DNA from: Elusimicrobia bacterium RIFOXYD2_FULL_34_15
GTDB lineage: Bacteria; Elusimicrobiota; UBA8919
Reading direction: 5' to 3'
DNA: 36,129 nucleotides
NCBI GenBank assembly: GCA_001800605.1
Contig: MGVS01000030.1
Span: 1-36,129, forward strand
Shown here: piece by piece, positions 22,417 through 35,448 of the stretch
How positions within the stretch are numbered: position 1 is the stretch's first letter
Layout: each line of letters opens with the position of its first letter
Notes under the pieces: generated by a model
The model's input: only the letters and a program-made list of their open reading frames with translations
Database searches by the model: none
Told to the model about the DNA's origin: nothing
Made by a program: the position numbers and the translations under genes

Positions 22417-22962
22417 ATGACTGAGAAACTTGATGAAAACCTTGTTGAATTAATAAAGACTTTTGAATCCTCTAATCTTGTATGGGAAAAAATATTGGAG
22501 AACGACCAGTTTGAATGTGAAAAAAAGATTAAAGAAGTTGAAAAACAAAATCAACTAATAAAATTTGAACTAGAAAATCTCAAACAACAATTTAAATTGG
22601 AATCTTCTGAAAAAGCTAAAATTGTATTTCAGGATGAGAAAATTAAATTGGATAAAGTTTTAAAAGAAAAACAGGATGAGTTAAACCGATTAATGATAAA
22701 TTACAAAAATAGGGAATTAGAACTATTGACTAAAATTCAGCAGCTTGAAAATAAGGCGGGAATCAAGAAGGGTGATACTGAGGACGCTGAAATATTAAAA
22801 AGAAGATTTGAGTTTGAATTAAAAGAGCTGCATAGAAATTTTGCAGAAGAAAAGAAAAATATTAACGACAAACATAAAACTGCTATGCTAATATGGAGAA
22901 TTATTGCAGTAACATTTATAATTCTATCTGCTATTGCAATATTATCGCTTTTCAAGGGCTAG
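22417..22962 (+). CDS. Coiled-coil protein with C-terminal TM anchor
   Basis: The 181-residue protein is mostly a Glu/Lys-rich coiled coil (about 15-150). A membrane helix at about 158-179 (WRIIAVTFIILSAIAILSLF) anchors its tail, so the coil faces the cytoplasm. Its N-terminus (LVELIKTFESSNLVWEKILE) resembles that of the protein at 23996 (LAGLKKTITMNKAMWEKVFS), which marks the two as relatives. It follows the TPR/HEAT gene after one base. No biochemical function can be read from the sequence. Confidence 0.75.
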   Translation: MTEKLDENLVELIKTFESSNLVWEKILENDQFECEKKIKEVEKQNQLIKFELENLKQQFKLESSEKAKIVFQDEKIKLDKVLKEKQDELNRLMINYKNRELELLTKIQQLENKAGIKKGDTEDAEILKRRFEFELKELHRNFAEEKKNINDKHKTAMLIWRIIAVTFIILSAIAILSLFKG

Positions 22963-22967
22963 AAATT

Positions 22968-23909
22968 ATGCAAAAAATATCAAGTCAAAACGAATTTTTA
23001 AAACAATATCAGGAAAAAATAAAATCTCAGTTAAAAACGAAAGACGACGAAATTCTAAGATTGAAAATTAGGATTAATGAGCTGAATGACGAACTGAAGC
23101 AGAGAAAACTTGATATCGAATCGGTTGAAATTAAGAATCGCAGTTTAAATGAAGAAATGCAGATGCTGAAAAGCAACTTGAAGGGAGAATGGTCGCAGTT
23201 AGATGAAATGCTGAAATTGAAGGAAAAAGATTTTAACTTTTTAAAGCAAGAATTAGAAAATAGAATTAAAAAATTGGAAGAAGAATATCAGAAAGAGGAA
23301 GTGAAAATAAATATAGTCCGTGAAGAGAAAAAAAGATTAGAACAGCAGATTGAGCAGGCTGAATCCCACTATAGGACTGAAAAAATAAAATTTAATGAAG
23401 AGATTAGTATAAGAGACGAAAAGTTAAAGAAGATTCAAGAATTAGAAAATAAAATAAGAATGTTGGAAGAAGGATTTCAAAAGGAAAAAGATAATGTTAT
23501 CAGTTTAAATGAAGAGAAAAAAAGATTGGAACAACAGATTGGACAGATAAATACTCAAAGCGAATTGGGGAAAATAAAAACTAATGAGGAAATTCAGCTA
23601 AGAGATGAAAAGTTGAAAAAGATTCAGGAATTAGAAAACAAAATTAAAAAATTGGAAGAAGAATACCGAAAAGAAGAAGATAAAGTTAGCAGCACACGTG
23701 AAGAAAAAAACAAATTAGAACAACAAATGGAACAGCTGGATGTAAAAAGCAAATTGGAAAAGATAAAACTTAATGAAGAAATTAAATTTAAAGATGAAGA
23801 AATAAGAAAAGAACAGGCGAAGTATAATCAGAAAGAACAGCAAATAAAGGTTTTAAAGATAGAAATGGATAGAATTGTTGAGAATTTAAAAAAAAGATTG
23901 TCAAAATAA
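22968..23909 (+). CDS. Soluble coiled-coil protein
   Basis: ATG 22968 lies five bases after the previous stop; an earlier in-frame start at 22893 would overlap the membrane helix of that gene in another frame and adds a Cys-rich stretch not seen in relatives. The 313-residue product is coiled coil nearly throughout, with an internal repeat of about 65-75 residues: LENRIKKLEEEYQKEE, LENKIRMLEEGFQKEK and LENKIKKLEEEYRKEE, each followed by EEKKRLEQQ or EEKNKLEQQ. The block LKEKDFNFLKQELENR is shared with the proteins at 23996 and 25323. It is probably a cytoplasmic filament or spacer. Confidence 0.75.
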   Translation: MQKISSQNEFLKQYQEKIKSQLKTKDDEILRLKIRINELNDELKQRKLDIESVEIKNRSLNEEMQMLKSNLKGEWSQLDEMLKLKEKDFNFLKQELENRIKKLEEEYQKEEVKINIVREEKKRLEQQIEQAESHYRTEKIKFNEEISIRDEKLKKIQELENKIRMLEEGFQKEKDNVISLNEEKKRLEQQIGQINTQSELGKIKTNEEIQLRDEKLKKIQELENKIKKLEEEYRKEEDKVSSTREEKNKLEQQMEQLDVKSKLEKIKLNEEIKFKDEEIRKEQAKYNQKEQQIKVLKIEMDRIVENLKKRLSK

Positions 23910-23911
23910 GT

Positions 23912-23940
23912 ATTGACATTTTTCGGAATATTCTTTATAA
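23912..23940 (+). promoter_or_regulatory. Full-consensus promoter before the third coiled-coil gene
   Basis: TTGACA (23912-23917), 17 bases, TATAAT (23935-23940): both hexamers are exact consensus. A strong GAGAGGAGGAG ribosome binding site follows at 23981-23991. This implies high expression of the next gene. Confidence 0.85.
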
Positions 23941-23995
23941 TTTATGGGCGAGTAATTTTATACAAAAAAATGATTTTTTTTGAGAGGAGGAGTAA

Positions 23996-25024
23996 GTGAA
24001 TAATTCTAATTTTGACGAGAAATTAGCAGGACTTAAAAAAACAATAACGATGAACAAAGCTATGTGGGAGAAGGTTTTCAGTGCCCATGAAGATAAATGG
24101 AAGACAAAAATCGAGGAAAAACAAGACGAAATTAGTAGAATTAAAGAAAAAGCAAAGGAAAGAGACGGTGAGCTGACGGATAAGCTTCACGATCACGAAA
24201 GAACGATATTTTCACAAGAAACCGAGATAAAAAATATTAAACGTGATTTAATTGCATTACAAACAGAACTACTCAATGAAAAAACAAAAAGAAAAGAAGA
24301 GCAAAAAAGTTATGAAAACACTATAATGGATCTTCAAAAAGAGATGACCCGAAAAGAAACCTTAGAAAGGGATAAATATAACGACCGTGATGTTATATGG
24401 CAGGCAACAGAAACCAAAAATAAAGATCTGGAAGAAGAACATAAAATAATGAAAAACAGGTTAGTCGAAGAACAGAAAAGATGGGAAGAAGTATTAAGAA
24501 TGAAAGAAGAAAATTTTACGGTTTTAAAGAAAGAGTTGGAAACCAGAGTTAAGGAATGGCAAGCACAGTACCAGGAATATGAGTTAGAAGTTCAGAAGCT
24601 AAGAAAAACGAAAACTAATTATGAAAATCAGATTAAGGAATTGCAGGAAAGGTTTAAATCGCAGGAACAGAAAATGCGCGGTACCATATCGACTGAATCC
24701 AGCGAGATAGAGGATTTAAGAAGGCAGATGCAGCATAATGAAAAAATATATAATGATAGTTTATTAGACAAAGAAAAAGAAATAGAAATGATGAAAAAAG
24801 ATATGGACATATTCCTTAAAGAATTAACAGATGCCGGCGGTGAGAAAAAGTCTGATAGTGAAAGTTCGAAAAAAAGCAGCAATAATAATAATACAGAATC
24901 TATGCCTGATTTAGAGGATGTATTAAAAATAACAGAAGTAGGTGAAGAAAAAGTAGATGAAGGATTAGAAGAAAATACAGAAAAACCAAAAACATCTTTT
25001 TGGAAAAGAATATTGAATAAATGA
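23996..25024 (+). CDS. Highly expressed-looking coiled-coil protein
   Basis: The protein has 342 residues and starts at GTG, three bases past a strong Shine-Dalgarno. It is coiled coil from about 5 to 285. It carries the family blocks MWEKVFSAHEDKWKTKIEEK near the start, MKEENFTVLKKELETRV in the middle, and DKEKEIEMMKKDMDIFLKEL towards the end. The tail is an acidic, Ser/Asn-rich linker with DLEDVLKITEVGEEKVDEG and a final basic TSFWKRILNK, which could be a short docking peptide. It has a consensus promoter and its own terminator, so it forms a single-gene transcript. The function is unknown; abundant scaffold is my inference. Confidence 0.75.
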   Translation: MNNSNFDEKLAGLKKTITMNKAMWEKVFSAHEDKWKTKIEEKQDEISRIKEKAKERDGELTDKLHDHERTIFSQETEIKNIKRDLIALQTELLNEKTKRKEEQKSYENTIMDLQKEMTRKETLERDKYNDRDVIWQATETKNKDLEEEHKIMKNRLVEEQKRWEEVLRMKEENFTVLKKELETRVKEWQAQYQEYELEVQKLRKTKTNYENQIKELQERFKSQEQKMRGTISTESSEIEDLRRQMQHNEKIYNDSLLDKEKEIEMMKKDMDIFLKELTDAGGEKKSDSESSKKSSNNNNTESMPDLEDVLKITEVGEEKVDEGLEENTEKPKTSFWKRILNK

Positions 25025-25060
25025 AGCGACTTTCTATTAAAACTGTTTAAAGGACATATT

Positions 25061-25087
25061 AAAATGCCGAGTTTATCGGCATTTTTA
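25061..25087 (+). terminator. Rho-independent terminator
   Basis: AAAATGCCGA (25061-25070), loop GTTTA, TCGGCATTTT (25076-25085), then T. It closes the gene at 23996. Confidence 0.85.
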
Positions 25088-25088
25088 A

Positions 25089-25322
25089 TGTAAGCCCTTA
25101 GAGGTGATTATAGAGTTATAAGTTTGATAGAATCGTTATATTGCGCGATTATGCCTGCCCGACTAAGTCATTCAGGCGGGCGTTAGTGGGATAGGATAGG
25201 ATTTTTTATTTAATAATTTAACATTTTCTATCGCACAATCCCACAACCCCACTATCGCACCTTTTAATAACTCTATGAACTCTATAAACTCTAAAAACTG
25301 TTTCCGGGGTAAGGTGTAAAAA
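25089..25322. repeat. Repeat-filled gap between coiled-coil genes
   Basis: It holds TAGAGTTATAAG text like 16612-16714, a GCCTGCCCG...CAGGCGGGCG hairpin at 25151-25180, and CTATCGCACAATCCCAC text (25231-25262), which is the inverse of the repeat before pgi. Three dispersed families have landed in one gap. GGGGTAAGG at 25306-25314 serves the next gene. Confidence 0.55.
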
Positions 25323-26093
25323 ATGCCTGACGAAATGAAAGATATCAAAGAAAAATATAATATTGACGGTAAAATAACCGAAGTGAGAAAATCCATAGAA
25401 GAAGGCAAAAAAGCTTTTGAAACGGAATTAACACGTTATCAGGATATGATAAAATCGGTTAAAGTTGAAACCGGTGCGCAGGTTATAAGTTTACAAAAAG
25501 CCATACAGGAAAAGGATGCTAAGATAAACGAACTTAATTTTAATATTGAAACTCTAAAAAATCAAATTTCTCAATTAAAAACTACTATAGGTACCAGAGA
25601 CACTCAGATAGAAAATCTGCAGAGGGAACTTACCGTCCGGGAAAATGTTTTAGAAACAACAAATATGAAAATACAGAAATATGAAGAAGAACTAAGAATA
25701 TTGAATGGCCAGTTAAGCGAGGAACAGCAAAAACATATTGAAATATTCCAAATGAAAGGAAATGATTTCGAATTAATGAAAAAAGAATTGAATCAGGAAG
25801 TGGAAAACTGGCGCGGAGAATGTTCTAAAAGAGAAAATCAAATTATGCTTGCCCAGGAAAACAGGCAGCAATTAAAAAAAGAACTTGATAATTTAATGGA
25901 AGAACTAAAGAGAATAAGATTTGAAACCAAAGAGCAACTTAAACTAAAAGAAGAGCAGATTGCCGGATTAAAAGATGAATTTACAATGAAGGAAAATACA
26001 TGGCAAAGCATATTGAAAGAGAAAGCCGGGGAAATAGATAGTTTAAAAAGGTCTCTGGATGATATGATAAAAGAATTAGTCGCAAAGTATTAG
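25323..26093 (+). CDS. Coiled-coil protein, fourth of the set
   Basis: The 256-residue protein is coiled coil throughout, without membrane helix. The family block appears as MKGNDFELMKKELNQEVENW, and the C-terminal part (WQSILKEKAGEIDSLKRSLD, then DMIKELVAKY) parallels DSLLDKEKEIEMMKKDMD of the protein at 23996. A repeated EKDAKINELN / TRDTQIENLQ phasing suggests internal duplication. It lies directly before the PilB-type ATPase (118-base gap), so a role in its placement or regulation is plausible but unproven. Confidence 0.75.
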   Translation: MPDEMKDIKEKYNIDGKITEVRKSIEEGKKAFETELTRYQDMIKSVKVETGAQVISLQKAIQEKDAKINELNFNIETLKNQISQLKTTIGTRDTQIENLQRELTVRENVLETTNMKIQKYEEELRILNGQLSEEQQKHIEIFQMKGNDFELMKKELNQEVENWRGECSKRENQIMLAQENRQQLKKELDNLMEELKRIRFETKEQLKLKEEQIAGLKDEFTMKENTWQSILKEKAGEIDSLKRSLDDMIKELVAKY

Positions 26094-26211: not shown

Positions 26212-28365
26212 ATGGGAATTAAACATATCTTTGGCGACGAATGGTTAACAGATGTGGTTTTAAAATTACCCAATATTACAGCAGATTTAATCAACGAACT
26301 AAGAGATAAACAATGTACATTTCTATCTGAATACTTAATTGAATCTCAGAAAATCACTGCTGAATCATTAGAAAAGATAGTATTTGAAACTCATAACATA
26401 CCGTATTTCAATCCTGATAAAATAGTTGTTGAAAAATTGGCGCTTTCTTTCATTCCGGAAAAAGTCTGCCGAAGGCATAAGTTAATTCCGTTTCGTTTGA
26501 AAGACGAATTCATAGACGTTGCTATGTCCAATCCTTTGGATTTTATTGCGAAAAATGATGTTCAGGCAGTAACAGGCAGAACTCCGAATCCATATTACTG
26601 CCTGCCTTCAAAGGTAGAAACTTTAATATCAGAACAGTTTAACCCTGAAATAATTATTTATGATCTGCTTGAAAAAGTGGATGAAAAAAATGAAGTTGAA
26701 ATATTAAAGAGTGTTCCAACCGAAAAAGACTATTCTACTTCTGAAAAAATCTTTCCGCCTGTAATAAAATTAGTTAACTCGCTTATCGCTAATGCAGTTA
26801 AAATGCGGGCGTCCGATATTCACATAGAACATGAAGAGTATAATAGCATTGTTCGGTATAGAATAGACGGATTTCTTAAAAATATAATGAAAATACCCAG
26901 AAATATAGCTACGGGACCGCTTGTCTCCCGTATAAAGATTATGGCTGATTTGAACTTAGCCGAACACTTTAAGCCGCAGGATGGCCGGGCCAAGCTGTTA
27001 GTCAACTCTATAGAAATCGGATTGCGGGTTTCCGTATTACCGACTGCCTACGGAGAAACAGTTGTAGTTCGGCTACTTAATCCAAAATCAGCTAAAGTTC
27101 CTTTTGAAGAATTGGGTTTTAAACAGGATATAGCGGCAAGATTAACAAACATACTGAATTCAGAACAAGGGGTGATACTTAATACAGGACCTACCGGTTC
27201 TGGCAAGACGACATCGTTGTATTCGATGTTGAATATGATTAAAAAAGAAAATACTAATATTATTACTATTGAAGATCCTATTGAATACCGTTTGGAAGGG
27301 GTTAACCAGGTCCAGGTAAATGAAAAACAGGGATTAACATTTGCCACTATTTTAAGGTCTGTTTTACGGCAGGATCCCGATGTTATTTTAGTAGGCGAAA
27401 TCCGCGACCAGGAAACAGCGGATATTACTTTCCAGACAGCGTTGACCGGGCATCTGGTGTTTTCAACATTACATACTAACGATACGGTGTCCAGCATTAC
27501 CAGGTTATCGGATATGGGTGTGGAAAGATATAAAATTGCACCTGCATTGCTTGCTATTACAGCCCAAAGATTGGTGCGCAGGCTTTGTCCCGAATGCAAG
27601 GAACCGGTTCCGGCAAAAAGAAATAATTCTGTTTTGATTGAAGTGCTTAAGAGAAATAATTTACCGACAGAATATTTCAAAGCTGTAGGTTGTATAAAGT
27701 GTGATTTTAGCGGGTATAGGGGCAGGCTGGCTATTTTAGAGCTTTTAGAAGTTAATCAGGATATAAAAAATCTTATAATTGCGGGTGAAAAAGAATTTAG
27801 TATCCGAGAAACTGCAATCAGGAATAATTGTTTATGGGCTATGGATTATGATGCATTATGGCATTTGTCGCAAGGAGACACTTCTTTAGATGAAATTTCT
27901 CCTTATTTAGATATAAGTTCCGAGCTTAAGCCTGCTAAAAAAGAATATTCTGCACCGGAAATTAAAAAACCGTCCGTAGCAGTATATAGAAAAAACAAAA
28001 GAATATTGGTTGCTGATGATGACCCTGATATACGCGATATTCTGAAAATATATCTTGAACAAAATGGTTACGATATGGATGAAGCCAACGACGGAAGGGA
28101 AGTAATAGATATAGTTGCACAGAAAATGCCGGATTTGCTTATTTTGGATTTGATGATGCCAAATCTGGATGGTTTTGGTGTTATTCATAGAATTCGTTCG
28201 GGACTAGGGCTGATTAAACTTCCAATTATTGTTCTTACTGCGGTATCCGACCATGAAAGTCAGGAAAATGTAATTAATCTGGGTGCAGATGATTATATTA
28301 TTAAACCATTTAGTCCAAATTTAGTTATAGCTAAGATTAACGCAGCTTTCAGAAGGGTAGATTAG
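26212..28365 (+). CDS. PilB/GspE-type ATPase with C-terminal receiver domain
   Basis: The 717-residue protein is a secretion/pilus extension ATPase. It has an N-terminal MshEN/GspE-N domain (about 30-150, with IPEKVCRRHKLIPF; such domains can bind c-di-GMP), the N2 domain (ASDIHIEHEE and YRIDGFL), and the ATPase core. The core has Walker A GPTGSGKT with Lys332, Asp box ITIEDPIEY, Walker B ILVGEIRDQETA and His box GHLVFSTLHTND. Zinc cysteines are C459, C462, C494 and C497. After a Pro/Lys linker, residues about 600-717 form a full receiver (VADDDPD, Asp646 in LILDLMMPNLDGF, VLTA, IIKPF). Direct fusion of a receiver to the ATPase implies control by phosphorylation. No pilin or PilC genes are in the window. 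Confidence 0.93.
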   Translation: MGIKHIFGDEWLTDVVLKLPNITADLINELRDKQCTFLSEYLIESQKITAESLEKIVFETHNIPYFNPDKIVVEKLALSFIPEKVCRRHKLIPFRLKDEFIDVAMSNPLDFIAKNDVQAVTGRTPNPYYCLPSKVETLISEQFNPEIIIYDLLEKVDEKNEVEILKSVPTEKDYSTSEKIFPPVIKLVNSLIANAVKMRASDIHIEHEEYNSIVRYRIDGFLKNIMKIPRNIATGPLVSRIKIMADLNLAEHFKPQDGRAKLLVNSIEIGLRVSVLPTAYGETVVVRLLNPKSAKVPFEELGFKQDIAARLTNILNSEQGVILNTGPTGSGKTTSLYSMLNMIKKENTNIITIEDPIEYRLEGVNQVQVNEKQGLTFATILRSVLRQDPDVILVGEIRDQETADITFQTALTGHLVFSTLHTNDTVSSITRLSDMGVERYKIAPALLAITAQRLVRRLCPECKEPVPAKRNNSVLIEVLKRNNLPTEYFKAVGCIKCDFSGYRGRLAILELLEVNQDIKNLIIAGEKEFSIRETAIRNNCLWAMDYDALWHLSQGDTSLDEISPYLDISSELKPAKKEYSAPEIKKPSVAVYRKNKRILVADDDPDIRDILKIYLEQNGYDMDEANDGREVIDIVAQKMPDLLILDLMMPNLDGFGVIHRIRSGLGLIKLPIIVLTAVSDHESQENVINLGADDYIIKPFSPNLVIAKINAAFRRVD

Positions 28366-28518: not shown

Positions 28519-28842
28519 ATGGAAAAGAACGTTATTTATATTAGTCCTGAGATTAAGGAAATAATTCCTGTTTATATTGAAAGAAGGAAAAAAGATCTCA
28601 TGGTTATGCATGAAGCGTTATCAAAAAATGATTTAGAAATCATTAAAAAGTTGGGTCATAAAATTAAAGGAACCGGTAGTCTATATAATTTAGATAAAAT
28701 ATCAGCCATAGGTAAGGAACTTGAAATCGCTGCGAAAAATAATAAACCTGAGCATATTAAAAAAATCATTGAAGAATTCTCAGATTTTTTAAATAATCTT
28801 GAGATAAAAATAGTTACCAATGATGAAAATAAGCCAAAGTAG
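28519..28842 (+). CDS. Hpt phosphotransfer protein
   Basis: The 107-residue protein is a single Hpt domain. A long first helix (YIERRKKDLMVMHEALSKND) precedes the phospho-acceptor block KLGHKIKGTGSLYNL with His47, then ISAIGKELEIAAK completes the four-helix bundle. Hpt proteins relay phosphate between receivers. The receivers available nearby are at 18499, 19814, 20491, the tail of the ATPase and the two HD-GYP proteins, so this is the likely hub of a multi-step relay. The start has no strong ribosome binding site. Confidence 0.88.
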   Translation: MEKNVIYISPEIKEIIPVYIERRKKDLMVMHEALSKNDLEIIKKLGHKIKGTGSLYNLDKISAIGKELEIAAKNNKPEHIKKIIEEFSDFLNNLEIKIVTNDENKPK

Positions 28843-29132: not shown

Positions 29133-30161
29133 ATGATTAAAATATTAATAGTTGATGATGAAATTTTAATTTGCGAGGTACTGAAAGATTTCTTTGAAAC
29201 AAAGGGGTTTGAAATATTTACTTTGCATAAAGGGGAAGACGTATTAAAAATAGTTGAAAAAGAAAAACCCCATTTAGTATTTTTAGATATGAATTTACCA
29301 GATAAATCCGGGATGGAGCTCCTGCCTGAAATAAAAAAAATTGATTCTACCACAAAAGTAATAATGATTACTGCATGCAGTGAAGAAGAAAAAGTAATCG
29401 AAGCAAAAAATAAAGGGGCAAGCGATTATATAATCAAACCGTTTTCTCTGGCATATATACAGGAAAACATTATGTACAAAGTATACGAGCAATTATTTGA
29501 AGATTTGCGCAGTAAACATAATAAACTAACCAATATATATGAGCAGACATTATTTATTCTTGCGAAAGTTCTTGAAGAAAAGGACCGTTATACTAAAGGA
29601 CATTCTGAAAGAGTGGCTAACTATAGCGTAGATATTGCCAAAGAGTTAAAGCTTCCAGAGAATTATATAAGAATTATATATCAGGCAGGATTATTGCATG
29701 ATATCGGCAAAATAGGCATAAAAAATATTATATTAAATAAACGCGATGTGTTATCAAATAATGAATTTGACGAAATAAAAAAACATACAATAATAGGATT
29801 CGAAATCCTGAATATTTTAAATAATTTTAAAGAACTTTCGGTAATTATACGTCATCATCACGAAAGGATAGACGGCAAGGGTTATCCTGATAATAAAAAA
29901 GGTGAAGAAATACCTCTTTCATCACGAATATTAGCCATAGCGGATTCATACGACGCTATGACATCTAACCGTCCGTATCGAAAAGGAATGGCGCAAGTCG
30001 AAGCAATTAAAAGATTGATAATGAGCAAGGGAACCCAGTTAGACACTATGTTAGTTAATATTTTTGTAAATGTATTAATTAAAAATAAAACAGTAACATC
30101 TGAGGATATAAAACAATTGTTATATAACGATTTGGTAATTCAGTCATTGTATTACCATTAG
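29133..30161 (+). CDS. Receiver-HD-GYP response regulator, c-di-GMP phosphodiesterase type
   Basis: The 342-residue protein is RpfG-like: receiver (about 1-120, LIVDDE, Asp52 in FLDMNLPDKSG, MITA, IIKPF) and HD-GYP domain (about 150-320). The catalytic residues look complete: KGHSERVA, LLHDIGKIGI with H189-D190 and Lys193, RHHHERIDGKGYP and ADSYDAMTSNRPYRK. HD-GYP domains hydrolyse c-di-GMP to pGpG or GMP, so phosphorylation would lower c-di-GMP. It is the better conserved of two tandem copies. The final 20 residues form an extra helix. Confidence 0.92.
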   Translation: MIKILIVDDEILICEVLKDFFETKGFEIFTLHKGEDVLKIVEKEKPHLVFLDMNLPDKSGMELLPEIKKIDSTTKVIMITACSEEEKVIEAKNKGASDYIIKPFSLAYIQENIMYKVYEQLFEDLRSKHNKLTNIYEQTLFILAKVLEEKDRYTKGHSERVANYSVDIAKELKLPENYIRIIYQAGLLHDIGKIGIKNIILNKRDVLSNNEFDEIKKHTIIGFEILNILNNFKELSVIIRHHHERIDGKGYPDNKKGEEIPLSSRILAIADSYDAMTSNRPYRKGMAQVEAIKRLIMSKGTQLDTMLVNIFVNVLIKNKTVTSEDIKQLLYNDLVIQSLYYH

Positions 30162-30179: not shown

Positions 30180-31166
30180 ATGATAAAGATACTAATAGTT
30201 GATGATGATGTATTAATATGCCAGGTATTGCAAGATTTTTTTGAATTGAAAGGGTATAAAATATTCACTGCGATTAACGGAGAAGATGCATTAAAAGTAG
30301 TAGAAAAAGAAAAACCTCACTTAGTATTTTTAGATATAGATTTACCAGATATATCCGGGATGCAGCTTTTACCTGAAATAAAAAAAATTGATTCTACTGC
30401 AAAAGTAATAGTTATTACAGGGTATAGTGAGGAAGAAAAAATAAACGAAGCAAAAAATAAAGGGGCAAGCGATTACATAATCAAACCGTTTTCTTTGGCA
30501 TATCTGCAGGAAAACATTATGTATAAAGTATACGAACAATTATTTGAAGATTTGCGTAATGAACATCAGGAGTTAGGAAGCACTTATGAACAAATTGTTT
30601 TCGCGCTAGCAAAGATTTTAGAAGAAAAAGACCATTATACCAAAGGGCATTCTGAAAGAGTGGCTAACTATAGTGTAGAAATAGCTAAGGAATTAAAACT
30701 TCCTGAAGATGAGATAAGGATTTTATCCCAGGCAAGTTTACTGCATGATATCGGGAATATAAGTATAGAAGATACTATTTTAAACAAACAAGATGAATTA
30801 TCCGATAATGAAAAAGAGGAACTTAAAAAGCATACTCTAACCGGTTTTGAAATATTAAATATAATAGACAATCTTAAAAGACATTCTACTATAATAAAAT
30901 ATCATCATGAAAGGGTAGACGGAAAAGGTTATCCTGAAAATAAAAAAGGGAAGGAAATACCGTTTCTAACTAAAATATTGACGGTTGCCGATGCATATGA
31001 TGCAATGACATCAAACCGTCCGCATAGAAAGGGAATGTTATCTCCAGGTGATGCAATTAATAAGTTGTTAGAAAACCGTGGAACTCAATTTGAATCCGAA
31101 GTAGTGGATGTTTTTAAAGATATTCTAATAAAAAAACAGATAATTTCAAACGAGAGTTTCCAGTAA
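30180..31166 (+). CDS. Second receiver-HD-GYP protein with HDIGN variant
   Basis: The 328-residue paralogue follows the first copy by 18 bases. Long shared stretches (GASDYIIKPFSLAY, KGHSERVANYSV and others) show tandem duplication. Asp52 in FLDIDLPDISG is kept. In the HD motif, H189-D190 is kept but the following Lys is Asn (LLHDIGNISI). GYP residues (YHHERVDGKGYP) and DAYDAMTSNRPHRK are intact. The Lys next to HD is conserved in most HD-GYP enzymes, so this copy may be weaker, altered or regulatory. It immediately precedes the PilZ-synthase gene. Confidence 0.9.
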   Translation: MIKILIVDDDVLICQVLQDFFELKGYKIFTAINGEDALKVVEKEKPHLVFLDIDLPDISGMQLLPEIKKIDSTAKVIVITGYSEEEKINEAKNKGASDYIIKPFSLAYLQENIMYKVYEQLFEDLRNEHQELGSTYEQIVFALAKILEEKDHYTKGHSERVANYSVEIAKELKLPEDEIRILSQASLLHDIGNISIEDTILNKQDELSDNEKEELKKHTLTGFEILNIIDNLKRHSTIIKYHHERVDGKGYPENKKGKEIPFLTKILTVADAYDAMTSNRPHRKGMLSPGDAINKLLENRGTQFESEVVDVFKDILIKKQIISNESFQ

Positions 31167-31225: not shown

Positions 31226-32890
31226 ATGATAGAGAGTTTAAATTTAGTAGAACAGCAAATACCTGCTTCTATCAGTAGAAGGGGATCCATGCGCATTCTT
31301 ACGGAAAACGTTACCTGCGGTATAAAAATTACAGGAAATGATGAAATTACCATGCAAGGGAATGTTATTAATATCGGATATGAAGGATTGGTTGCAAAAT
31401 TAAGTGAAGCTCTTACAATATCACAGAGAGTTTACATTACAATTAAGTTACCTCAACCATACGGAGATATAAAGTTAGAGGGAAGAGTAATGTGGATTTC
31501 AATGGACAAAGATAAAGGGTTTTTAGCCGGAATAAACTTTTTTGTATTCGAAAACCAGGAAAAATTGAAACCTATAAAAGATTTTATCTATGACAATATA
31601 AACAATGTAAAAATAATCGACAGAAGAAAAGGTGAAAAGCGGGCAATAGGGAAAAAAGAATTAAATAATTTGAATAATCAACGAAAACGAGAAAGAAGAT
31701 TGCAAAAACCAATATTTCTAAAATGTATTAGATATAATAGAATGAAAAGATTAATGAACGAAAATATTTATTTTTATCTTAGAGAAATTCAGTCGCGTTC
31801 GGGAAATAGAATTATCGTAAAAGGTAAAGAATTAAGAAATTTTGGCTCAAATAATTATTTAGGACTTACTAGTCATCCACTAATTACAGAAGCTGCAATA
31901 AAAGCTATAGAAAAGTATGGGGTAGGCTCCGGTGGTGTAAGAGTACTAAGCGGAACGATGGATTTGCATAACCAGCTTGAAAAAAAACTTGCAAATATAA
32001 AATCCGGTGAAGATTGTATTATATTTTCGAGCGGTTATAATGCCAATGTCGGAGTTATTTCGTGTTTAATTAATAAAGATGAATATGTGATTATAGATGA
32101 AAAAAGCCACGCAAGTATTATTGACGGATGTATGTTGGCAAAAGCAAATATGGTTGTTTTCAGGCATAATAATATGATAGATTTAGAAAAAAAATTGCAG
32201 AAAATTCCTGCAAATGTTTCTAAGATAATTATGACTGACGGTGTTTTTAGTATGGATGGGGATGTTGCAGAATTGGATACCATTCATAGTTTAAGTCAAA
32301 AATATAAAGCTGCAACATATATAGATGATGCCCATTCAACCGGTGTAATGGGAAAAAACGGCAAAGGAACTGCAGAATATTTTAATTTAGAAGGTAAAAT
32401 AGATTTAACCATCGGCACATTAAGTAAGGCATTGGGTGGGGTTGGCGGATTTTTAGTAGCTAGTAAAGATATAATACATTATTTAAAACATAACAGCAGG
32501 TCTTTTGTTTTTTCAACCAGTTTACCTCCTGCTACATGTGCCGCTTTGCTTAAAGCGGTTGAAATTATCGAAACCGAACCTATTTGGCATCAAAAACTAT
32601 GGCAAAATATTAATTATGTAACAAAAGAATTAAGAGGTTTAGGTTTTGATATAAGAAAAACTGAATCGGCAATTATCCCCATTATTTTCAAAAATGATGA
32701 TTCAACATATTCTATCACAAAAGAATTAGAGGAAGCGGGAATATTTGTAAGCCCGGTCGTTTACCCGGCGGTTAGAAAAAACGAATCAAGAATAAGAGTA
32801 AGTATTATGGCAACGCATACTGAAAATGATTTACATTATTTCTTGGAAAAATTAACTAAAATATCTAGAAAAAATAAAATAATAAATTAA
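31226..32890 (+). CDS. PilZ domain fused to alpha-oxoamine synthase
   Basis: The 554-residue protein joins two domains. Residues about 15-128 are a PilZ domain: RxxxR at R19-R23 (RRGSMR), then NIGYEG at 49-54, the place of the D/NxSxxG motif (Ser replaced by Gly), then GRVMWISMD and GFLAGINFF. A very basic linker follows (about 135-165). Residues about 172-545 are a PLP enzyme of the BioF/KBL/SPT/CqsA group: NFGSNNYLGLTSHP, GSGGVRVLSGTMDLH, DEKSHASIIDG, TDGVFSMDGDVAEL, IDDAHSTG and GTLSKALGGVGGF with PLP Lys401. The reaction would join an amino acid and an acyl-CoA or ACP thioester. Substrate is unknown; SPT-like lipid or CqsA-like signal synthesis fit best. GGGAGG precedes the ATG. Confidence 0.9.
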   Translation: MIESLNLVEQQIPASISRRGSMRILTENVTCGIKITGNDEITMQGNVINIGYEGLVAKLSEALTISQRVYITIKLPQPYGDIKLEGRVMWISMDKDKGFLAGINFFVFENQEKLKPIKDFIYDNINNVKIIDRRKGEKRAIGKKELNNLNNQRKRERRLQKPIFLKCIRYNRMKRLMNENIYFYLREIQSRSGNRIIVKGKELRNFGSNNYLGLTSHPLITEAAIKAIEKYGVGSGGVRVLSGTMDLHNQLEKKLANIKSGEDCIIFSSGYNANVGVISCLINKDEYVIIDEKSHASIIDGCMLAKANMVVFRHNNMIDLEKKLQKIPANVSKIIMTDGVFSMDGDVAELDTIHSLSQKYKAATYIDDAHSTGVMGKNGKGTAEYFNLEGKIDLTIGTLSKALGGVGGFLVASKDIIHYLKHNSRSFVFSTSLPPATCAALLKAVEIIETEPIWHQKLWQNINYVTKELRGLGFDIRKTESAIIPIIFKNDDSTYSITKELEEAGIFVSPVVYPAVRKNESRIRVSIMATHTENDLHYFLEKLTKISRKNKIIN

Positions 32891-32900
32891 CTATTTTAAC

Positions 32901-35108
32901 ATGAATTTACATATTATTAATGCATTATCCGCAGGGACCTTTAGTTTATTATTAGGGCTTCTTGTCTATTTAAAAACTAAAAAAGATATAACTTTATCTT
33001 TTTTTCTAATGAATATCAGTATATCAATTTGGAATTTTGCCGACATATTGATTGTATTGAGTCCGAACAATACACTTGCATTATTTGCCGATAGAATCGC
33101 TAATATCGGAGCTTTTTTTATAATTCCTTTTTTTATTAAGATAAACCTTATGATAACAGAATCCTATTCAAAAGGTTTCTATAAAAAATTATTTAAATAT
33201 TCGATTATATTTTCAGTATTTTTATCAATAATAAATTTTACAAAATATTTTTTAAAAAGTGTAAGTATCAATCCATTTCGTGAAGAGATAGGGCCCTTAT
33301 ACTATCTTTTTATTGCTTACTTTGTGTTTTTTTCATTTTTTGTTTTATATAATGTTTTAAGATATTATTTAAAAATCAATTCTCCGGTCAAAAAGCTTCA
33401 GTTGAAATATATATTTTCCGGATTTTATGTAGGAATTATTGGTGTATTAATATATTTTGCCACATTATTAAACAGAGAAATTCCGCCGATTCATTATTAT
33501 TTTGAAATTTTATATTTATCTATTTTTGCTTATGCAATTGTCAAGCACCGTTTAATGGATATTAAAATAGTCGTTACCCGTGCAGGGATTTTTTTGGTAG
33601 TTTATACTTTTGTTTTAGGCCTTCCTTTTGTGTTTGGGTATATTACAAATAATTGGATATATTCAACCATTTTAATGGCAATTTTAGCGACATTTGGTCC
33701 GGTTGCATATTCGAAACTTAGGCGGGAAGCAGAAAATATAATACTACAGGAAGAAAAAATAGCACATAAATTACTCTTGAGAACTAGTAAGGAAATGTCA
33801 ACCGTTCGTGAACTTAAAAAACTTTTCAGTTTAATTACTCATATTATAACTAAATATATGAGAGCAACAAATGCTGCTGTTTATTTATTTGACAATGAAA
33901 CAAATAAGTATATATTAAAAGACATTAGATTTAAAAATAAAGATATTGAACCGCTATTTTTTGGAAAAAAAGACGAAATTATTGCATATTTAAATATAAA
34001 GAAAGCTCCTATAGTTTATGAAGAATTAGTTTTTCATCCGTTAACCGATAATGAAGAAATTGTTTATGAAAAATTGATTTTGCAGTTCAAAGAATTGTCT
34101 GCGGCAATAGTTGTGCCCTGCTTTAGTAAGGATTTTTTATTAGGATTTTTGATATTGGATAATAAAGAATCCGGCCAAATTTATACTCAGGACGATTTAG
34201 AGCTTCTTTCTATTTTAGCTAATCAGTCAGTATTGGCTATAGAAAATGCAATTTTTTATGAAGAGACAGGAAAATCATTGGCACAACAATTTCAGGAACA
34301 CAGGTTGAGATCTTTAGGGAAAATGGGCTCGGGAATGGCGCATCAAATAAATAACCGGTTCAATTTAATCAGTACTACTGCAGAATTAAGTTATTTAGAA
34401 TACTTACCAAGGTTAAAGTCACAATTGAATAAAACAAATATTAAAGATGAATTAGTAAATAATTTGACAGATAAATTAGATAAATATTTAAAAATAATCA
34501 AAACAGAAGCTCATAAAGGCGGTGAAATTGCTAGAACTTTAACAAGCTTTTCAAGAAATACGGAAGGATATGAAAGCCCTGTAGTGCTTGATGAGGTTAT
34601 AAAGGGCAGTTTAAATTTACTTTCCTGTAAGTTTGATTTAACTGAATTAGGTTTGTTGTATGAATTACCTGCAGGAGATTTTAAAGTAGCAGGGAATTTA
34701 GCGCAACTCCAGGATGTGTTTTTTAATTTATTGGATAATGCACATGATGCTCAGAAAAAAAAGAAAGAAGAGATGGGGTGGGGAAAGATACAGCTTGAAT
34801 CGGATTTTAAACCTAAAATAATAATTAGGGCAAAAAGAGAAAATGGTTTTTTGAAGCTGGAGATAGAAGATAACGGCATTGGAATGATGCCTGCGCAAGT
34901 TGACCAGACGTTTATACCTTTTTTTACAACAAAAGCGTCAGCAATGAAAGGAACAGGGCTAGGGTTATACGTAATAAAAAGAATGGTGGAATCACATCGA
35001 GAAGGTAAGATAGAAGTAAAGTCAGAATACGGTAAAGGGACAACATTTTTTATGCAGCTTCCAACTTATACGGAAAAGGAAAAAAATGAAAACAATATTA
35101 ATAGTTGA
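32901..35108 (+). CDS. Multi-TM histidine kinase with GAF domain
   Basis: The 735-residue kinase has about eight membrane helices in residues 1-285 (7TM-type sensor module, e.g. INALSAGTFSLLLGLLVYL and IFLVVYTFVLGLPFVFGYI), a GAF domain (about 300-450, with AAIVVPCFSKDFLLGFLILD), and a kinase core. His481 lies in SGMAHQINNRFNLIS. The ATP part has FFNLLDNAHDAQ, EDNGIGMM, FIPFFTTKAS and GTGLGLYVIKRMV. It starts ten bases after the PilZ-synthase gene and overlaps the receiver gene by 23 bases. Membrane sensor plus synthase in one operon resembles CqsS/LqsS quorum systems, although the sensor itself is of a different, larger type. Confidence 0.9.
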   Translation: MNLHIINALSAGTFSLLLGLLVYLKTKKDITLSFFLMNISISIWNFADILIVLSPNNTLALFADRIANIGAFFIIPFFIKINLMITESYSKGFYKKLFKYSIIFSVFLSIINFTKYFLKSVSINPFREEIGPLYYLFIAYFVFFSFFVLYNVLRYYLKINSPVKKLQLKYIFSGFYVGIIGVLIYFATLLNREIPPIHYYFEILYLSIFAYAIVKHRLMDIKIVVTRAGIFLVVYTFVLGLPFVFGYITNNWIYSTILMAILATFGPVAYSKLRREAENIILQEEKIAHKLLLRTSKEMSTVRELKKLFSLITHIITKYMRATNAAVYLFDNETNKYILKDIRFKNKDIEPLFFGKKDEIIAYLNIKKAPIVYEELVFHPLTDNEEIVYEKLILQFKELSAAIVVPCFSKDFLLGFLILDNKESGQIYTQDDLELLSILANQSVLAIENAIFYEETGKSLAQQFQEHRLRSLGKMGSGMAHQINNRFNLISTTAELSYLEYLPRLKSQLNKTNIKDELVNNLTDKLDKYLKIIKTEAHKGGEIARTLTSFSRNTEGYESPVVLDEVIKGSLNLLSCKFDLTELGLLYELPAGDFKVAGNLAQLQDVFFNLLDNAHDAQKKKKEEMGWGKIQLESDFKPKIIIRAKRENGFLKLEIEDNGIGMMPAQVDQTFIPFFTTKASAMKGTGLGLYVIKRMVESHREGKIEVKSEYGKGTTFFMQLPTYTEKEKNENNINS

Positions 35109-35448
35109 TGATGAAGTGTTGATATGTAAGATTTTAAAAGAGTACTTTGAATTAAATGGATATAATACATTCGCTGCATTTACAGGGCAAGAAGCTTTAA
35201 ATTCAATTAAAAAAGAAAAACCAAACCTTATATTACTGGATATAGGACTGCCGGATATTTCAGGAATAGAGCTTTTGCCAATGATAAAGGCAATGGATCC
35301 AAATATTAAGATAATAATAATTTCTGCGTATTCAGAAGACGAAGAAAATATATCGCGTGCAAAATTACAGGGTGTAAATGATTATGTTGTCAAACCTTTT
35401 TCATTAACTTCCTTACAAGAAATTGTTTTCAATAAAATGAGCGATTAA
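35086..35448 (+). CDS. Single-domain response regulator paired with the GAF kinase
   Basis: The 120-residue receiver has LIVDDEVLIC, the phospho-acceptor Asp in LLDIGLPDISG, IISAYSED and VVKPFSL. It is closely related to the receiver parts of the two HD-GYP proteins (shared LPDISG, LLP.IK, YSE and KPFSL), so the three arose by duplication, and this one lacks or lost the HD-GYP part. It overlaps the kinase gene by 23 bases, so it is probably its direct target. Confidence 0.92.
   Translation: MKTILIVDDEVLICKILKEYFELNGYNTFAAFTGQEALNSIKKEKPNLILLDIGLPDISGIELLPMIKAMDPNIKIIIISAYSEDEENISRAKLQGVNDYVVKPFSLTSLQEIVFNKMSD

Follow-up and report, generated by a model that had tools for sequence, protein, structure and literature searches.

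A PilZ-fused alpha-oxoamine synthase encoded beside a 7TM sensor kinase and HD-GYP proteins suggests a c-di-GMP-linked signalling or lipid-control circuit in Elusimicrobiota and other phyla

In the Lqs system of Legionella (LqsA-LqsR-LqsS) and the CqsA-CqsS system of Vibrio, a synthase of the alpha-oxoamine synthase (AOS) superfamily is encoded beside a multi-TM sensor kinase (PMC3376566). In the Rpf/DSF system of Xanthomonas (RpfF-RpfC-RpfG), a lipid signal is linked to a membrane kinase and a c-di-GMP-degrading HD-GYP regulator, and the synthase is under feedback control (PMC5391125). Serine palmitoyltransferase (SPT), another AOS enzyme, is encoded next to ACP and acyl-ACP synthetase genes in Rhodobacteria (PMC9386255), and cellulose synthase BcsA and other PilZ-fused enzymes are thought to be gated by c-di-GMP (PMC10333796). 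The operon described here shares traits with each of these systems. A search of the full-text literature, in which few subscription journals are covered, returned no relevant report of a PilZ domain fused to SPT or BioF.

The window, the whole stretch of 36,129 nucleotides that was analysed, comes from contig MGVS01000030.1 of Elusimicrobia bacterium RIFOXYD2_FULL_34_15, which has a genome of 2.47 Mb. It carries five closely spaced genes on one strand, encoding HD-GYP protein 1, HD-GYP protein 2, the PilZ-AOS fusion, a kinase and a receiver, with successive gaps of 18, 59, 10 and -23 bp. The features are:

28519..28842, + strand: Hpt-domain protein (Pfam Hpt, 26.7 bits, cut-off 24.6), 290 bp upstream of the operon
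29133..30161, + strand: receiver and HD-GYP protein 1 (Pfam Response_reg and HD_5; HDIGK and HHERxDGxGYP intact)
30180..31166, + strand: receiver and HD-GYP protein 2 (Pfam receiver and HD-GYP-type HD; HDIGN and HHERxDGxGYP)
31226..32890, + strand: PilZ-AOS fusion, 554 aa (ORF, Pfam, NCBIfam, AlphaFold)
31277..31588, + strand: PilZ domain, aa 18-121 (Pfam, genome profile search, AlphaFold, motifs)
31589..31735, + strand: basic linker of low confidence, aa 122-170 (DRRKGEKR and RKRERR; AlphaFold)
31736..32884, + strand: AOS catalytic domain, aa 171-553 (H295, DDAH at 367-370, PLP-type K401 and R524 conserved)
32901..35108, + strand: sensor histidine kinase, 735 aa (HisKA_7TM at 32931-33563, GAF at 33813-34247, HATPase_c at 34701-35066)
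35086..35448, + strand: stand-alone receiver, 120 aa (Pfam receiver), overlapping the kinase gene by 23 bp

The first-pass annotation of this DNA had proposed a PilZ domain fused to an AOS-type PLP enzyme, followed by a multi-TM kinase and an overlapping receiver and preceded by two HD-GYP proteins. This arrangement is borne out by the coordinates: both Pfam domains lie in the single ORF, the kinase gene follows it after 10 bp, and the two proteins directly upstream have receiver and HD-GYP-type HD domains on the same strand. The kinase was likewise recognized correctly, with the correction that it belongs specifically to the HisKA_7TM sensor family; its H-box reads GMAHQINN (aa 478). Only two HisKA_7TM matches occur in the whole genome, one of them the PilZ-AOS neighbour, and this, together with the conserved pairing described below, rules out chance adjacency of synthase and sensor. 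The locus as a whole is neither accident nor assembly artefact, because a gene 78% identical to the fusion stands in the same setting in the sister genome, an Elusimicrobia MAG (UBA9627; G001), and distant homologues occur in other families and phyla.

HD-GYP protein 1, with intact motifs and a receiver resembling the stand-alone one, is probably a c-di-GMP phosphodiesterase and cognate response regulator. HD-GYP protein 2 may be a weak or pseudo-enzyme that is losing catalysis, since it has HDIGN here and its copy in the sister genome (L053:9100-10095) has HN in place of HD; it may act as a receiver or scaffold. The Hpt-domain protein is a possible phosphorelay partner of the operon. Neither its gene nor that of the stand-alone receiver was found at the sister locus. 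Farther upstream in the window, positions 26212-28365 encode a type II/IV secretion or pilus ATPase (MshEN and T2SSE) with a C-terminally fused receiver, also absent at the sister locus, and positions 22417-26093 encode consecutive long coiled-coil proteins of unknown function, which stand in the same order in the sister genome.

The enzyme domain matches Aminotran_1_2 (198 bits, aa 204-543), and the catalytic residues of the AOS superfamily (H295, D367, H370 and K401) are intact. It scores below the cut-off of every equivalog model: 476 bits against 640 for SPT-CFB (NCBIfam NF047600), 448 against 535 for TIGR01825, 427 against 460 for KBL, 417 against 426 for BioF and 284 against 339 for ALAS. 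The CqsA/LqsA-type model (NF005526), with 228 bits against 428, represents the farthest of these functional classes, and the same model gives 173 to 227 bits on the scanned related PilZ-AOS and sensor-linked AOS proteins. In the PDB, the best match is the SPT of Sphingobacterium (381 bits), with CqsA at 120 bits. Foldseek with a model of the homologue from MAG STB_115 likewise returned SPT structures as best matches (8guh, E 6.5e-43, target TM 0.94).

A maximum likelihood tree of 48 AOS domains places the window enzyme inside a main clade of ten sequences (support 100/96), sister to a ten-member SPT clade (joint clade 100/99); KBL, Thermus AOS and BioF fall outside both. The SPT clade holds the Sphingobacterium SPT and also a second AOS from the window's own genome (contig C77), which scores 559 bits on SPT-CFB, again under 640, and adjoins a GNAT-like gene. 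Because this second enzyme is also SPT-like, the window enzyme is an extra, divergent SPT-like AOS and not the sole SPT candidate of its genome; a further, BioF-like paralogue is encoded elsewhere. The sister relationship to SPT and the low CqsA/LqsA-type score make SPT-like chemistry the likelier type, an alternative that the first-pass annotation had raised. Two AOS genes of Candidatus Harpocratesius (Promethearchaeota; L139 and L162) also lie within the SPT clade, beside Bacteroidota SPT, and are of possible interest for archaeal sphingolipid-type chemistry.

The PilZ assignment, on which the earlier reading depended, holds in profile searches, with 28.2 bits against the Pfam cut-off of 22.5 and 31 bits in the genome search; five other scanned fusions score 29.7 to 47.6 bits, all above the cut-off. 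Structure prediction gives a confident PilZ-like domain, a linker and an AOS fold (AlphaFold with 13 homologues, mean pLDDT 80.5). Residues 21-130 form beta strands in a barrel followed by a helix at 111-124 (block pLDDT about 72-89), and residues 133-170 form the low-confidence linker, whose basic character recurs in the G336, L135, L103 and L201 homologues. A whole-chain fold search returned the AOS part alone, and the PilZ fold thus rests on the profile and the predicted topology. The first c-di-GMP motif, RxxxR, is present as RGSMR and is kept in all seven complete PilZ domains of the fusions. The second, [DN]xSxxG, is complete in four of the seven (G336, L135, L201 and L100); the window, G001 and L202 have Gly in place of Ser, the window motif being NIGYEG. 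Searched against PDB sequences, the PilZ alignment matched mainly PilZ proteins of type IV fimbriae assembly, at weak E-values; the founding protein of that family does not bind c-di-GMP (PMC10333796). The window domain may bind c-di-GMP, which would then gate the enzyme.

PilZ-AOS fusions were found at eight loci, in five Elusimicrobiota genomes, in STB_115 (L135) and in two Spirochaetota-group genomes. Apart from the window and its sister, the Elusimicrobiota members are an Endomicrobiales MAG (G336, 43% identical), G031 (L100) and G187 (L202). In one Spirochaetota-group member, a Spirochaetes MAG (L103), the PilZ domain is inferred because the contig ends inside the same basic linker. The other, G764, was the sole further member to emerge from strict searches, in a set of 393 Spirochaetota-group genomes around that of L103; 384 genomes of Omnitrophota, 74 of the phylum of Saganbacteria and 5 of the phylum of STB_115 yielded no further member at thresholds that would miss divergent ones. 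The system thus appears to be rare. The AU test rejects a tree in which every PilZ-bearing AOS falls in one clade (p-AU 2.8e-5), and with it a single origin of the fusions. The combination was therefore probably assembled more than once, with some caution owing to long branches, which also affect the weaker rejection of one clade uniting the PilZ-less members with the second lineage (AU p 0.018).

In all eight fusion loci, a 7TM-GAF sensor is encoded on the same strand within three genes of the fusion. Four clade relatives that lack PilZ, from three genomes of Omnitrophota and one of Saganbacteria, likewise adjoin a 7TM sensor kinase, and a receiver gene overlaps or adjoins at Omnitrophota loci L129 and L140; the sensor's presence in these relatives shows that the core can do without PilZ. 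Among loci whose downstream sequence extends for 3 kb or more, the sensor is present at 9/9 main-clade loci and at 2/79 other AOS loci (Fisher p 9.6e-11, a count that ignores relatedness and was made with the clade known). The two exceptions among the 79, G031 and G187, are the second PilZ-AOS lineage. The conserved pairing of synthase and sensor seen in Lqs- and Cqs-type systems is thus found here as well. Other neighbours include FadL-type outer-membrane channel genes in four cassettes, ACP-, ketosynthase- and AMP-ligase-like genes beside Omnitrophota AOS, and SDR and methyltransferase genes in the G336 operon. In G031 (L100:3889-15901), three 7TM-GAF-HATPase kinases are encoded within 12 kb around one PilZ-AOS, in a region where FadL-like, amidohydrolase and receiver genes also occur, and G187 has retained PilZ-AOS together with FadL, an amidohydrolase, a kinase and a receiver.

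The output of the sensor varies. Both sensors flanking the STB_115 fusion, and the sensor downstream of that in L103, are 7TM-GAF-HD-GYP proteins with no kinase. In a tree of the 7TM domains, HD-GYP- and kinase-bearing sensors stand together in both subgroups, so the two outputs appear interchangeable. Loci with a kinase output have a receiver-HD-GYP protein encoded alongside in the window, G001 and L129; the window and G001 each have two such genes upstream, and at L129 a PilZ-less cassette is followed by an RR-GAF-HD-GYP gene. A receiver-HD-GYP protein beside the kinase, as in Rpf/DSF, is therefore present. The receivers of the two HD-GYP proteins share 50-55% identity with the stand-alone receiver (50% for protein 1), compared with 26-36% for other receivers of the window. 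Seven GGDEF matches indicate that c-di-GMP synthesis is available in the genome. With the sensor itself fused to HD-GYP in two other genomes, the link to c-di-GMP proves stronger than the first-pass annotation had claimed.

From the domain make-up, the operon structure, the multi-phylum synteny, the swapping of outputs and the SPT-side position of the enzyme, all observed here, we conclude with slightly better than even confidence that the operon is a closed synthase-sensor circuit using c-di-GMP, in which a dedicated AOS product is monitored by a 7TM receptor. The SPT-like enzyme would join an amino acid to an acyl thioester by condensation, giving a long-chain aminoketone or derivative, and the neighbouring 7TM-GAF receptor would sense this product, or the state into which it brings the membrane. 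Signalling in the window would run from the receptor through its kinase, by phosphotransfer to the receiver-HD-GYP proteins; in other genomes it would run through the HD-GYP domain fused to the receptor. Altered HD-GYP activity would change c-di-GMP, a messenger that the synthase would read through its PilZ domain, adjusting production up or down. FadL-family proteins and the ACP-, ketosynthase- and AMP-ligase-like genes fit a long-chain product, and the SDR and methyltransferase of the G336 operon fit its processing. The product may leave the cell. A fuller version of the proposal, held only tentatively, is a new class of cell-cell communication in little-studied phyla by a long-chain aminoketone or sphingoid-like autoinducer, with a c-di-GMP-gated synthase and a 7TM receptor directly controlling c-di-GMP breakdown in a closed loop that was assembled at least twice independently.

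In our analysis, such a circuit would resemble Lqs/Cqs crossed with Rpf/DSF and belong to neither, its enzyme falling outside the family that defines each. It has in common with Lqs and CqsA-CqsS that the gene of a PLP synthase adjoins that of a multi-TM sensor kinase, and it shares a receiver protein with Lqs. It differs in an AOS of an SPT-sister clade far under the CqsA/LqsA cut-off, a HisKA_7TM-GAF sensor, PilZ on the synthase and an HD-GYP output. Likeness to Rpf/DSF lies in the proposed lipid-derived signal, the membrane kinase, the HD-GYP response regulator and feedback on the synthase, whereas the enzyme is a PLP-dependent AOS and not an RpfF-type enoyl-CoA hydratase, and the sensor is of another family. 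Feedback would run through PilZ and c-di-GMP here; in Rpf/DSF the RpfC receiver binds the synthase. The SPTs of Bacteroidota and Rhodobacteria are nearest by profile, tree and fold, and the Omnitrophota cassettes share their ACP and AMP-ligase-like neighbours; the window enzyme nevertheless stands apart in its sub-cut-off score, its separate clade, its fused PilZ and its paired 7TM sensor. As in BcsA, a biosynthetic enzyme carries a PilZ domain, but the enzyme here is a PLP-dependent acyl-amino acid condensing one. An enzyme expected to join a fatty acid to an amino acid, carrying a domain that normally senses c-di-GMP and encoded in several phyla beside a sensor wired to breakdown of this messenger, suggests an undescribed self-regulating signalling or lipid-control circuit. 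If the proposal is true, c-di-GMP directly controls a signal or lipid synthase whose own receptor feeds back on that messenger, and circuits of the Lqs and Rpf kind reach phyla studied mainly through metagenomes. The circuit would also suggest that sphingolipid-type chemistry can serve bacterial signalling. The exchange of kinase and HD-GYP on the same 7TM sensor is a clue to the obscure HisKA_7TM sensors, whose input may be an AOS-derived lipid.

Two other accounts of the enzyme can be set against these data. The earlier comparison with CqsA-CqsS and LqsA-LqsS-LqsR was right about the logic of a synthase beside its sensor, which multi-phylum synteny upholds, and wrong about kinship. Alpha-hydroxyketone quorum sensing of the CqsA/LqsA type with an added PilZ domain would have the same gene order of synthase, membrane kinase and receiver (PMC3376566), and the SDR and methyltransferase of G336 could process its product. 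This account is disfavoured as very improbable: the low CqsA/LqsA-type score beside the higher SPT-CFB one repeats in the scanned relatives, the sensor is Pfam HisKA_7TM, and no CqsS or LqsS model appears among the best 25 of 60 NCBIfam matches. We reject CqsA/LqsA membership on the profile score and the tree position beside SPT. Still harder to credit is an ordinary BioF/KBL housekeeping enzyme with accidental neighbours, despite model scores of 417-427 bits just below the cut-offs; this identity is rejected on the tree, where the joint clade with SPT is strongly supported, and on the synteny, the sensor neighbour being conserved in several phyla. The genome also encodes a second BioF-like paralogue at another site, which speaks against this account. 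A firm position within biotin BioF and a loss of synteny in relatives, named in advance as grounds for abandoning the reading, were thus both contradicted.

More weight attaches to two readings that retain the SPT-like enzyme. In one, which involves no cell-cell signalling, the AOS product is a sphingoid-type lipid for the membrane or for storage, the 7TM protein monitors membrane composition, and lipid synthesis is coupled through c-di-GMP to life on surfaces or in biofilms. The nearest relatives of the enzyme are SPTs, the neighbours of Omnitrophota AOS recall those near Rhodobacteria SPT, a stand-alone PilZ gene lies near an ordinary SPT in several Elusimicrobiota genomes, and such 7TM sensors could watch membrane state without a secreted signal. 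We nonetheless regard this as somewhat unlikely, as the genome already provides for ordinary sphingolipids through a separate SPT paralogue, a GNAT or ceramide-synthase-like neighbour is absent at the PilZ-AOS locus, dedicated signal circuits typically show such exclusive pairing with a sensor, and FadL-type channels occur in four cassettes. The other reading makes PilZ a scaffold or targeting domain that does not bind c-di-GMP, with the circuit running through the kinase alone. It draws on the Ser-to-Gly change in the window and two others, on the fimbrial PilZ matches in the PDB and on PilZ-less members with the same neighbours. RxxxR in every complete domain, the full second motif in most of them and the HD-GYP domains beside or fused to the sensor, which make c-di-GMP relevant, lead us to doubt it. 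The closed c-di-GMP circuit remains our preferred reading.

Several Elusimicrobiota genomes (loci L051, L054, L057, L060, L062 and L070) also carry a PilZ gene on its own, placed two to four genes upstream of another AOS. At L051:8195-11174 (G000, contig C77), it is flanked by leuD-like and leuB-like genes of a leucine-type operon, and the SPT-like AOS and the GNAT-like gene follow. Control by c-di-GMP near sphingolipid synthesis may therefore extend beyond the fusion.
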